The notes under the pieces are model-generated. The model made no database searches. It was given only the letters and a program-made list of their open reading frames with translations, and had not been told where the DNA came from. 33,461 nt of DNA from an uncultured Hyphomicrobiales bacterium. Lineage in GTDB: Bacteria > Pseudomonadota > Alphaproteobacteria > Rhizobiales > Xanthobacteraceae. Made by a program: the position numbers and the translations under genes. Positions 11,940 to 14,318 of the stretch are shown piece after piece (position 1 is the first letter of the stretch; every line of letters starts with the position of its first letter). The stretch covers positions 1 through 33,461 of the forward strand of contig CAIMEA010000224.1 of the NCBI GenBank assembly GCA_903839845.1, given 5' to 3'.

Positions 11940-12920
11940 ATGGAGATCACTCGTCGCGCTGCGCTTGTCGGGGCCGCAACTGCCGCGGCGGCCACGTATG
12001 CGCCATTCGGTATCCGCAATAGTCTGGCGGCCGCGCCGGTTGGCGGCAAAGGCACCGGGGTCTATCGCTACAAGGTCGGCGACTACGAGATCATCCAGTT
12101 GATGGACGGCGCGCGCACTTTCCCGATGCCGGACCAGTTCGTGGTCAATGTCAGCAAGGACGAGGCGATCAAAGCGGCCACCGCCGCCTATCTTCCCGAG
12201 GGCAAGGTGACGATTCCGTTCTCGCCGATGATCGTCAACACCGGCTCCAAGCTGGTGGCCATCGATACCGGCAACGGGCTTGGCGCCTTCGCGGCGAGCA
12301 AAGGCGCGGTCGGGCAGGCGCGCGGCAATATGGAATCCGCCGGCATCGACCCCAAGCAGATCGACATCGTGGTCATTTCGCATTTCCACGGCGATCACAT
12401 TGGCGGCTTGAAGAATGCCGATGGCAGCGCGGCGTTTCCGAACGCCGAGATCAAAGCGCCGGCGGCGGAGATCGCGTTCTGGGGCGATGAATCGAATGCG
12501 AGCAAGGCCAATGGCTTCAACAAAGGCCAGTTCGCCGCGGCAAAAAAGATGATGGAGGGCCTGAAGGTCACGCCCTATGACGCCGACAAGGAAGTTGCCC
12601 CGGGCATCACCTCGATCGCATCGCCGGGCCACACGCCCGGTCATATGTCGTTCGCGGTGGTCTCGGGCGCCAAGAAGATTCTGGTACAATCGGACGTCAC
12701 CAATATCCCGTCGATGTTCCTGCGCAATCCGGATTGGCAGGTGCTGTTCGACAACGATCCCGACACCGCCGTGAAAACACGGCACCGCATCTACGACATG
12801 GCGGCGACGGAAAAGATGGTCGTTGCCGGCTATCATTTCCCGTATCCGTGCGTCGGTTACGTCGAAAAGGACGGCAAAGGCTATCGGCTGGTTCCGGTCG
12901 CCTGGGACTCGAATGGCTAA
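11940..12920 (+). CDS. Exported metallo-beta-lactamase-fold hydrolase
   Basis: The 326-residue protein starts with a twin-arginine-like signal (ITRRAALVGAATAAAA). The zinc-binding HxHxDH is at residues 148-153 (HFHGDH), followed by SPGHTPGHMSF, an Asp in LVQSDVTN and a His in AGYHFPYP, so all usual metal ligands are present. The substrate is not evident; quorum-quenching lactonases and other hydrolases share this layout. GGGAGG lies 5 bases before the ATG. Export after folding via Tat would fit a cytoplasmically metal-loaded enzyme. It is monocistronic, with its own promoter and terminator. Confidence 0.92.
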   Translation: MEITRRAALVGAATAAAATYAPFGIRNSLAAAPVGGKGTGVYRYKVGDYEIIQLMDGARTFPMPDQFVVNVSKDEAIKAATAAYLPEGKVTIPFSPMIVNTGSKLVAIDTGNGLGAFAASKGAVGQARGNMESAGIDPKQIDIVVISHFHGDHIGGLKNADGSAAFPNAEIKAPAAEIAFWGDESNASKANGFNKGQFAAAKKMMEGLKVTPYDADKEVAPGITSIASPGHTPGHMSFAVVSGAKKILVQSDVTNIPSMFLRNPDWQVLFDNDPDTAVKTRHRIYDMAATEKMVVAGYHFPYPCVGYVEKDGKGYRLVPVAWDSNG

Positions 12921-12944
12921 GCGGGCATAAGCCTGCGTCACGCG

Positions 12945-12972
12945 AAGGCCGCCGGTTTTCGGCGGCCTTTTT
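12945..12972 (+). terminator. Intrinsic terminator of the MBL-fold hydrolase gene
   Basis: AAGGCCGCCG (12945-12954) pairs with CGGCGGCCTT (12960-12969) around a GTTTT loop, and the T run continues to 12972. It lies 24 bases after the stop codon. It also isolates the argC promoter that follows 29 bases later. Confidence 0.93.
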
Positions 12973-13000
12973 GCATTGGTGCCAGCCATGGCTGTCCGCC

Positions 13001-13029
13001 TTGACCCTGCCGGCGGCCAAGACTATATC
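13001..13029 (+). promoter_or_regulatory. Predicted sigma-70 promoter of the argC leader
   Basis: TTGACC (13001-13006) and TATATC (13024-13029) have a 17-base spacer. Transcription would begin at about 13035-13038, on or just before the ATG of the arginine-rich leader ORF, so the leader transcript would be leaderless or nearly so. argC itself begins more than 220 bases further on, leaving a long structured 5' region. Confidence 0.72.
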
Positions 13030-13037
13030 GCGCCATT

Positions 13038-13112
13038 ATGACGATGTTTTTTGCACCCGCGCCGCGCCGCCGCCGCCGTATCGACACGGCACGGGCGCGC
13101 TTTCGCGTGTAA
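13038..13112 (+). CDS. Putative arginine-rich leader peptide of argC (24 codons)
   Basis: This small ORF encodes 24 residues, eight of them Arg. Codons 10-14 (13065-13079) are five consecutive arginines (CGC four times, then CGT), and Arg also appears at positions 19, 21 and 23. It starts with MTMFFAPAP and ends in RFRV with TAA. Its ATG coincides with the start site expected from the promoter at 13001-13029, so it would be translated without a Shine-Dalgarno, as is known for the trpL leader of Sinorhizobium meliloti. The location before an arginine-biosynthesis gene suggests that ribosome speed at the Arg codons reports arginine supply. The caution is that GCC-rich simple sequence yields Arg runs by chance in one frame. 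Confidence 0.55.
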   Translation: MTMFFAPAPRRRRRIDTARARFRV

Positions 13113-13148
13113 AACGTCCCCTGTGCCGCCGGAATTTGGCCGCGGCAC
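13087..13148 (+). promoter_or_regulatory. Attenuator-like mutually exclusive RNA stems before argC
   Basis: GTGCCGC (13123-13129) and GCGGCAC (13142-13148) form a seven-pair stem, extended inside by GG-CC, ten bases after the leader stop codon. The same left arm can instead pair with the leader ORF: 13087-13095 (CGGCACGGG) with 13120-13128 (CCTGTGCCG), nine consecutive pairs including one G-U. A ribosome held at the Arg run leaves 13087-13095 largely free. One that reaches the stop codon covers it and lets the downstream hairpin form. The downstream hairpin lacks a clear U run (CTTGATCC follows), so termination may need Rho or control may act otherwise. A second hairpin, GCTCCGC-GT-GCGGAGC, is at 13191-13206. 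Confidence 0.5.
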
Positions 13149-13259
13149 CTTGATCCTCCCGACCGTTGCCTTAATCCGAATGAATGAACCGCTCCGCGTG
13201 CGGAGCATCGGCGCCCTGTGGCGATGACACGGGCGCTTGAACCGAAGGACCCTAAGGCC

Positions 13260-14318
13260 ATGGCTACCAAGGCAAAAATCGGCGTGCTCGGCGCCTCCGG
13301 CTATACCGGCTCCGAACTGGTGCGGATGCTGTTGCGTCACCCGCGCGCCGAGATCGCGCTGTTGACCGCCGAACGCAGCGCCGGCAAGGCCATGCGCGAG
13401 GTGTTTCCGCAGTTCTCGCCCTATGAATTGCCAACCTTGGTCGCTTTGGACGGTCTTGACTGGAAGGCAATGGCGCTCGACGTGGTGTTCTGCGCGCTGC
13501 CGCATGCGACGACGCAAAAGGTGCTGAAAGATCTGCTTGCCTCCGCGCCGGCGACCAAAGTGGTTGATCTGTCGGCCGATTTCCGGCTGGCGGATACTGC
13601 CGCTTACGCCAAGTGGTACGGCCACGAACATCATGCGCCCGACCTGCAAAAGGAAGCGGTCTATGGCCTGTGCGAAATCCATCGGCGCGAGATCAAGCAG
13701 GCGCGGCTGGTCGCCAATCCGGGCTGCTACACCAGTTGCGCGCAACTGCCGCTGACGCCGTTGATCAAGGCGAAAGCCATCGACCTCGACGAGATCGTCA
13801 TCGACGCCAAGTCGGGCATGACCGGCGCGGGCCGGGCGGCGAAAGAGGCCATGCTGTTCTCGGAAGTGTCGGAGGGCTTCAACGCCTATGGCGTCGGCAA
13901 GCACCGGCACATGGCCGAACTTGACCAGGAGTTCTCGCTGGCTGCCGGGCGCGAAGTGACGGTGACCTTCACGCCGCATCTGGTGCCGATGAACCGGGGC
14001 ATTCTCTCGACCATCTATGTGCGGGGCAAACGCGGCCGGACGCCGCAAGACCTTCACGAGATACTCTTAAAGTTCTACGCCAAGGAGCCTTTCGTGCATG
14101 TGCTGCCGTTCGGCGAGACGCCGCACACGCGGCATGTGCGCGGCTCCAACATGACCATGATCGGCGTCGTCGCCGACCGCATCGAGGGCCGGGCCATCAT
14201 CGTCTCGGCGCTGGATAATCTGGTCAAGGGCGCCTCCGGACAGGCGATCCAGAACATGAACCTGATCATGGGCTACCCGGAACCGATGGGCATCGATCAG
14301 GTCGCGCTGTTTCCCTAG
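13260..14318 (+). CDS. argC: N-acetyl-gamma-glutamyl-phosphate reductase
   Basis: ArgC reduces N-acetylglutamyl phosphate to N-acetylglutamate semialdehyde with NADPH, the third step of arginine biosynthesis. The 352-residue product has the NADP-binding GASGYTG (residues 11-17), SADFRL (about 105-110), the catalytic Cys156 in NPGCYTS and the conserved GKHRH block. Its size is that of type-1 ArgC. An in-frame ATG at 13218 would add 14 residues, but MATKAKIGVLGASGYTG is the usual beginning and AAGGA lies upstream of it. The 5' region holds a promoter, an Arg-rich leader ORF and attenuator-like structures. No other arg gene is in the window, so control of this single gene would be at a scattered locus. 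Confidence 0.97.
   Translation: MATKAKIGVLGASGYTGSELVRMLLRHPRAEIALLTAERSAGKAMREVFPQFSPYELPTLVALDGLDWKAMALDVVFCALPHATTQKVLKDLLASAPATKVVDLSADFRLADTAAYAKWYGHEHHAPDLQKEAVYGLCEIHRREIKQARLVANPGCYTSCAQLPLTPLIKAKAIDLDEIVIDAKSGMTGAGRAAKEAMLFSEVSEGFNAYGVGKHRHMAELDQEFSLAAGREVTVTFTPHLVPMNRGILSTIYVRGKRGRTPQDLHEILLKFYAKEPFVHVLPFGETPHTRHVRGSNMTMIGVVADRIEGRAIIVSALDNLVKGASGQAIQNMNLIMGYPEPMGIDQVALFP

Follow-up and report, generated by a model that had tools for sequence, protein, structure and literature searches.

The question raised by this locus is how argC, the gene for N-acetyl-gamma-glutamyl-phosphate reductase, is controlled in a genome without a recognisable arginine repressor. ArgR (PF01316) was found neither in the genome itself nor in any of the 60 genomes searched (own plus 59 relatives), whereas nine of 14 control genomes were positive, eight of them above the cut-off; control by ArgR was rejected on this ground. 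The window, that is the whole stretch of DNA analyzed, comprises 33,461 bases of contig C224 of an assembly of 4.04 Mb (240 contigs, 99.76% complete). Its features suggest an answer: the 5′ end of the argC transcript very probably forms a ribosome-mediated (trp-type) transcription attenuator sensing charged tRNA-Arg. An arginine attenuator at this position had been proposed in a sequence-only reading, and comparative genomics supports that interpretation. The elements concerned are as follows.

11940-12920, MBL-fold gene upstream of the leader; nearest to AidB-type lactonases, below cut-off (171 of 360 bits)
12945..12974, + strand, terminator-like repeat AAGGCCGCCG/CGGCGGCCTT behind the MBL-fold gene, with five T at 12968-12972
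13001..13006, + strand, -35 element TTGACC
13024..13029, + strand, -10 element TATATC, behind a 17-nt spacer
13038..13112, + strand, leaderless leader-peptide ORF of 24 codons, 8 of them Arg; transcription predicted to start on the ATG or no more than about 2 nt from it
13065..13079, + strand, run of five Arg codons, the putative sensor codons and also segment 1 of the RNA switch
13087..13098, + strand, segment 2, left partner of the putative antiterminator, within the ORF
13120..13129, + strand, segment 3, the shared arm: right partner of the antiterminator and left arm of the terminator
13142..13148, + strand, segment 4, right arm of the putative terminator, GCGGCAC
13149..13160, + strand, pyrimidine-rich tail behind the terminator hairpin; 4 T of 12, no strict U run
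13260..14318, + strand, argC, the presumed controlled gene (TIGR01850, 418 bits versus a cut-off of 233.6)

The leader ORF runs from the ATG at 13038-13040 to a TAA stop at 13110-13112, and its product is MTMFFAPAPRRRRRIDTARARFRV. The hairpin begins 10 nt past this stop, and its arms GTGCCGC (13123-13129) and GCGGCAC (13142-13148) are 100% complementary. In the competing pairing, CGGCACGGG (13087-13095) faces 13120-13128 in nine consecutive pairs, one of them G-U. Promoter, ATG, 24-codon ORF, five-Arg run, hairpin and competing pairing were all located in the window where the sequence-only reading had placed them; one weak point it had named, a missing U run after the hairpin, is equally real, the 12 nt in question containing four T. 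A strict promoter scan returned no site scoring at least 9/12 in the window, the -10 element matching at 4/6; the promoter is taken as real because TTGAC[CG]-N17-TAT is conserved in all 30 same-genus loci described below. A strict terminator scan reported nothing, and it missed the T-run hairpin at 12945-12974 too, which separates the upstream MBL-fold gene from the argC promoter. Between the terminator and argC, a second perfect inverted repeat (GCTCCGC/GCGGAGC, 2 nt between the arms) occupies 13191-13206. Hairpins with other letters are found in this stretch in several same-genus loci, for example GTTCCCGTCAACGGGAAC in L013 and GCTCCCGCCCGGGAGC in L011, and one resembling TCCGGTAGTCCTTTAAGACTCTGGA in L021, L024 and L025; compared without a control, the hairpins between terminator and argC present no consistent picture across loci.

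Of 60 genomes searched for ArgC, the own one among them, 59 gave a match. The same-genus set consists of 36 genomes (own included), 35 of which gave an ArgC match, and 30 loci (L002-L031) were aligned upstream of argC. In all 30, TTGAC[CG] is followed after a 17-nt spacer by TAT and then by an ATG 12-14 nt downstream of the first -10 base; the ORFs which follow possess 19-25 codons, including 4-8 Arg, and end close to the TGCCGC hairpin arm. Conservation upstream of argC in relatives, the check that the sequence-only reading had suggested, thus came out in its favor, with ORF and Arg run kept at every one of these loci. A covariance model (R1) built on the 30 leaders finds a single strong site in the window's own genome (2.9e-32; next best 0.076). 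Run over 397 genomes of the order, it matches 52 at E ≤0.1. Matches below 1e-9 occur in 17 genomes, all of which belong to the window's family (f1, probably Xanthobacteraceae in the GTDB sense), which is represented by 19 genomes in the draw, two of them without a leader by R1; matches in other families of this draw are at chance level, the best being 0.003. Weak second matches, covering the same model span (37-158), were seen in two genomes of genus g26, which is probably Bradyrhizobium: G178:C19:501806-501915 (0.012) and G305:C5:1010069-1010178 (0.081). These may be chance or another leader.

A further collection of named argC loci comprises the best 80 of 209 by ArgC similarity alone. R1 detects the leader upstream of argC in 78 of the 80 (E ≤2.6e-4), and in one more, L112 (Tardiphaga sp. 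P9-11), it lies just outside the fetched stretch (1.4e-13). The only named locus of the 80 without the leader is L114 (Xanthobacteraceae MAG FW602_bin.18). In L114, argC is preceded by only a short stretch, with a DedA-like reading frame, recognized by eye, immediately upstream. According to the record titles, the genera with the leader include Pseudolabrys, Afipia, Tardiphaga, Rhodopseudomonas, Rhodoplanes and Pseudorhodoplanes. A plasmid search revealed argC coding DNA in Azospirillum and nothing else. Altogether 124 leader loci were assembled (30 + 16 + 78, the sets overlapping), of which 95 distinct leaders were retained; counts given out of 94 leave out L119, which has no RR run. Since R1 was used to locate leaders outside the genus, these may lean towards the genus type. 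The -35 motif TTGAC[CG] recurs in most of the 124 loci, and the -10 element is TATATC, TATAGC or similar in most loci outside the same-genus set.

From this arrangement we infer a course of events familiar from trp-type attenuation. Transcription would start at or next to the AUG, so that the ribosome would load directly on the leader. With ample arginine, the ribosome would pass the Arg codons and reach the stop, where it would occupy the stretch separating segment 2 from segment 3, which lies 7-15 nt past the stop, and keep the two from pairing; segment 3 would then be left free, the 3:4 hairpin would form, and transcription would end before argC. When Arg-tRNA is scarce, the ribosome would stall on the Arg codons, immediately 5′ of segment 2, and leave that segment free; segments 2 and 3 would pair, the terminator could not form, and argC would be transcribed. 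The antiterminator segment lies inside the ORF, 5′ of the stop, from which it follows that a ribosome at the stop would presumably work mainly by sitting between the two partners. The last codon of the run is located 7 nt before the segment 2 core in 83/94 leaders, and the ORF stop 7-15 nt before the TGCCGC arm in 89/94. A ribosome covers approximately 12 nt downstream of its A site, and the spacings fit such a footprint: a ribosome in the run would leave segment 2 uncovered, and one at the stop would reach to about the beginning of segment 3, occupying the loop that separates 2 from 3.

Whether both structures are maintained was examined on an alignment (A3) of the 95 leaders, with slid and shuffled controls for pairing. 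Terminator pairs are formed in 93.9% of cells (slid controls 28-68%) and antiterminator pairs in 87.1% (slid controls 32-57%). At 0.126 for the terminator and 0.176 for the antiterminator, the covariation scores are higher than in any shuffled or slid control. Two terminator pairs show changes in both partners, a number reached in 224 of 500 shuffles, and so do five antiterminator pairs (17 cells), numbers reached by 9 and 0 of 500 shuffles, respectively; slid antiterminator versions also give five pairs and up to 20 cells, and both-side changes by themselves do not discriminate from the controls. The strength of the 2:3 duplex is more informative as to co-evolution: partners from the same leader have a mean of -24.8 kcal/mol versus -21.3 kcal/mol with partners from leaders less than 65% identical, and the leader's own segment 3 is a stronger partner than the mean of distant ones in 87/95 leaders. 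Permutation of the 2:3 partners gave no result as good in 5000 trials (z -11.5); relatedness inflates this permutation result, and the comparison with distant partners less so. The same partner test reveals a smaller excess for 1:2 (z -6.0) and 3:4 (z -3.8). Taken together, these data suggest that a mutually exclusive terminator and antiterminator co-evolve, with relatedness only partly controlled.

Ensemble folding gives a less uniform result. With the ribosome placed at the stop, the terminator is favored in 94/94 leaders and the antiterminator in none. A ribosome on the third-last Arg codon leaves the antiterminator favored in 64/94, so that 30/94 fail, compared with 12-28 of 94 (mean 18) when the ORF tails are shuffled. 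It is favored in only 11/94 with the ribosome on the last Arg codon, and in 23/94 when the whole leader is folded. The window leader as a whole adopts the terminator state, with an unremarkable fold energy (z -1.56; 14 of 200 shuffles equally good). Folded from 13080, its minimum-energy structure is the antiterminator and its centroid the terminator, with an energy no better than that of shuffles (z 0.47); a ribosome at the third-last Arg codon gives 0.75 for the terminator versus 0.19 for the antiterminator. Because equilibrium folds give the antiterminator no clear advantage in the window leader, co-transcriptional folding, in which 2:3 would pair before segment 4 exists, is assumed. Equilibrium folding alone is a weak test.

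The tail behind the hairpin bears on how the switch would act. Across 94 leaders, the T fraction in the 12 nt after the hairpin is 0.40 versus 0.21 in the following stretch, and at least five T occur there in 55/94 (four in the window); in the window's family the GC-rich hairpin is thus followed by a T-rich stretch without a strict run. A second leader family was found in family f20, genus g20, where all 12 genomes have their own leaderless Arg leader before argC, consisting of TTGACA, a leaderless ATG and a 16-codon ORF with RRR in ten and RR in two (examples are the peptides MNTISTSTRRRSLILR and MITAATSTRRRILIQR). Here argC is preceded in 12/12 by a GC hairpin with six or more T behind it. 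This U-run terminator eases the main weakness, the missing U run, for the mechanism class. The competing structure is the minimum-energy fold in just 3/12 of these leaders once the 5′ part is removed, so the antiterminator is less well supported there.

Stalling at Arg codons could also switch the RNA with an output other than intrinsic termination, such as a Rho site, an RNase site or a change in the stability of the argC mRNA. The window's lack of a strict U run speaks for this, as does a tested precedent, Salmonella speF orf34, in which, according to the excerpted text of PMC6386406, pausing at Arg codons has Rho and RNase G outputs. The enrichment of T directly after the hairpin, the T runs in every member of the second family and the close spacing of stop and hairpin, which is what terminator/antiterminator control would lead one to expect, point the other way, and we consider such an output unlikely.

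The ATG is located at position 36-39 from the first base of the -35 element in all 124 loci, and an SD-like motif within 9 nt before it was found in only 1/94 leaders. Among the 95 distinct leaders the ORF has 18-26 codons, and Arg makes up 25% of the residues; RRR is present in 90/95 and RR in 94/95, whereas frames +1 and +2 of the same stretch contain RRR in 1/95 and 0/95. The motif CGYCGYCGY is present in 89/95 leaders; all 89 have it in the reading frame of the ATG, despite 9-13 preceding codons. Run codons are mostly CGC; the last one encodes Arg in 92/95, as CGT in 50 and CGC in 42. No other part of the peptide is nearly as well conserved as the Arg run, and the remainder is variable (e.g., ARARF, AVWA, AAG); some positions outside the run are moderately conserved, and these fall in the pairing segment. 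We read this as selection acting on the run as codons and on the ORF tail as RNA. The leader codons also match the end product of the pathway presumed to be controlled, an Arg-enriched ORF standing in frame before argC. Chance GC-rich sequence was considered as an explanation and rejected on frame, spacing and co-evolution across the 95 leaders.

The same data weigh on the view that the ORF is a gene for a functional Arg-rich micropeptide and the hairpin merely the terminator of that small gene. Translated leaderless sORFs occur in Sinorhizobium, where the peptide peTrpL acts in trans (PMC10117765 and PMC7298713, as excerpted); yet here the peptide varies outside the Arg run while the RNA of its tail co-evolves with segment 3, the window's leader matches no Pfam or NCBIfam family, and the leader is linked to argC throughout the sample, so that a micropeptide gene is very improbable. 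Equally hard to credit is an RNA switch bound by a metabolite or protein, with ORF and Arg codons as by-products of GC-rich pairing: the GC-rich run does pair within the leader in the whole-leader fold, and its codons are mostly CGC, but its fixed frame with the ATG (89/89), the alternation of synonymous codons at its last position, where Arg is retained in 92/95, the conserved spacing of ATG and stop, and the lack of an Rfam family all argue against it.

Searches with established families gave the following results. No Rfam covariance model matches in the window at gathering score, and the 11 matches up to E 10 within 12921-13400 are all far below their gathering scores; a known Rfam leader or riboswitch was rejected on this basis. 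The 24-aa leader of the window has no Pfam match up to E 10, DUF2618 (PF10940) included, and no NCBIfam match. A leader of the speF/orf34 (DUF2618) kind was rejected, as PF10940 does not match and the downstream gene is argC.

Ribosome-stalling leaders of proteobacteria are associated with his, thr, ilv, leu, phe and trp genes. Actinobacterial leaders of the same class are described for trp, ilv, leuS and cys in the excerpt of PMC1262725. As proposed for the argC leader, the antiterminator is chosen in these classical systems when a ribosome stalls on regulatory codons; none of those named is known to sense arginine. To our knowledge, no case has so far been described in which ribosomes stalled on leader codons govern arginine synthesis. 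The fungal arginine attenuator peptide is encoded by a short ORF which keeps an arginine gene at lower expression when the amino acid is abundant; this eukaryotic system involves nascent-peptide arrest caused by arginine, has no RNA terminator and is unrelated. Among the literature matches listed (open-licence PMC full text), there is no bacterial attenuator of argC or of arginine synthesis, and the excerpts of PMC4842269 and PMC2965389 do not mention arginine.

The closest parallel is trpL/rnTrpL of Sinorhizobium meliloti, whose uORF begins at the transcription start, contains Trp codons and is followed by two mutually exclusive structures; this leaderless attenuator ORF was detected by Ribo-seq (PMC7298713, PMC10117765, both as excerpted). 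The sequence-only reading had stated that trpL has no 5′ UTR, and these excerpts agree. They also describe the trp leader of Bradyrhizobium (Bja-peTrpL) and state that related leader peptides are unconserved except for consecutive Trp residues (PMC7298713, PMC10117765). The argC leader, known from its sequence, would resemble S. meliloti trpL, as far as the latter is described there, in its leaderless uORF, cognate codons and competing structures. Unlike trpL and Bja-peTrpL, it possesses Arg rather than Trp codons and precedes argC, its antiterminator segment is inside the ORF upstream of the stop, and the U tract is weak in the window's family. In E. coli trpL, too, segment 2 is not inside the ORF, unlike in the argC leader. 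By analogy with rnTrpL, the terminated leader (approximately 110-120 nt) may also be active in trans, either as small RNA or as peptide.

Two further systems involve arginine. In Salmonella speF orf34, a uORF, the ribosome pauses at consecutive Arg codons, and the RNA structure switches with the arginine supply (PMC6386406, in excerpt). The argC leader differs from this ORF of 34 codons, which has a Shine-Dalgarno sequence, the conserved domain DUF2618 and two consecutive Arg codons, and which controls ornithine decarboxylase, a polyamine gene, through Rho, access to the RBS and RNase G; the excerpt describes no trp-type terminator before a biosynthetic gene such as that proposed for argC (PMC6386406). 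In Pseudomonas aeruginosa, attenuation has been suggested for carA (arginine and pyrimidine synthesis), which has a leader peptide upstream; in the excerpted text this attenuation is tied to pyrimidines, arginine acting at transcription with ArgR, and P. syringae has no such carA leader peptide (PMC4997734). The statement in the sequence-only reading that no bacterial arginine attenuator of this type was known stands for arginine synthesis, for which the literature matches listed yielded none, and has to be narrowed in that control by pausing at Arg codons does exist, in speF orf34.

The arrangement of genes behind the leader is more variable than the leader itself. In 56 of the 78 named loci it stands directly before argC, with 91-165 nt from its stop to the argC start; in the other 22 this distance is 366-803 nt. 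In L042 a PF04299 (FMN_bind_2) gene, identified by family search, lies between Arg leader and argC at 1714-2400, and in L183 a similar PF04299-like gene, identified by eye, at 1711-2394; the inserted gene would be under the same control as argC. An MBL-fold-like gene, again by eye, is also situated upstream of the leader in L042 and L183, and this neighborhood therefore looks conserved. Among the g26 loci, the ArgC behind the leader is only 27-31% identical to that of the window in 12/14 (L041, L044 and L046-L055), and the sole g26 ArgC classified, that of L046, is TIGR01851. In Tardiphaga sp. P9-11 (L112, L183), the MBL-fold gene is followed by the leader, then by a PF04299-like gene and finally by two argC genes, the first for ArgC of the other type and the second for that of the window type; in genome G229 both ArgC types likewise stand behind the leader. 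The occurrence of the other type, or of both, behind the same leader indicates that the leader is retained at the locus even as the enzyme gene behind it is replaced. The tandem ArgC types, together with the other type nearest the leader in g26, are possibly an enzyme swap caught midway.

For the spread of such leaders beyond the window's family, 60 further argC upstream stretches of 600 nt from 53 genera were scanned (59 from other families, and genome G112 of the window's family). The scan for leaderless Arg-rich ORFs, which recovers 90/95 known leaders and 12/12 of the second family, returned only two weak GTG-started matches (L223, L248), which were judged not credible. When the promoter requirement was dropped, an ATG-started RRR ORF appeared in L194, L195, L197 and L220, with promoter scores of 4-6 of 12. 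Twenty loci were also examined by eye, 16 of them showing the ArgC start: L151 contains the second family, and elsewhere several Arg-rich frames have no promoter. In L149, L194 and L195 (families f18 and f45), a frame just upstream of argC resembles by eye the end of an agmatinase-type enzyme, and no Arg leader was seen before argC. R1 is blind to second-family leaders at useful scores, so that its silence elsewhere says little. The two leader families may reflect either independent origin or repeated loss.

We think it likely that this is the first case of trp-type attenuation in arginine synthesis, in which a leaderless leader with Arg codons would serve as the main feedback control of argC in genomes without ArgR and has been kept through ArgC-type exchange in Bradyrhizobium-like genomes; a second family has another leader, with a U-run terminator, and is of independent origin or left by repeated loss. 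New, as judged from these sequences, would be arginine as the amino acid sensed for a biosynthetic gene, the leader being a candidate sensor, as well as the leaderless form, whose antiterminator segment falls within the ORF, and the absence of ArgR from these genomes. The bacterial group concerned includes nitrogen-fixing and phototrophic genera used in the laboratory. For genomes without a recognisable ArgR, the leader offers a specific answer to the question of how arginine synthesis is regulated, and the regulator stays with its locus though the enzyme gene has been swapped for a distant type. The finding adds to the evidence that bacteria of this group build attenuators on leaderless mRNAs.
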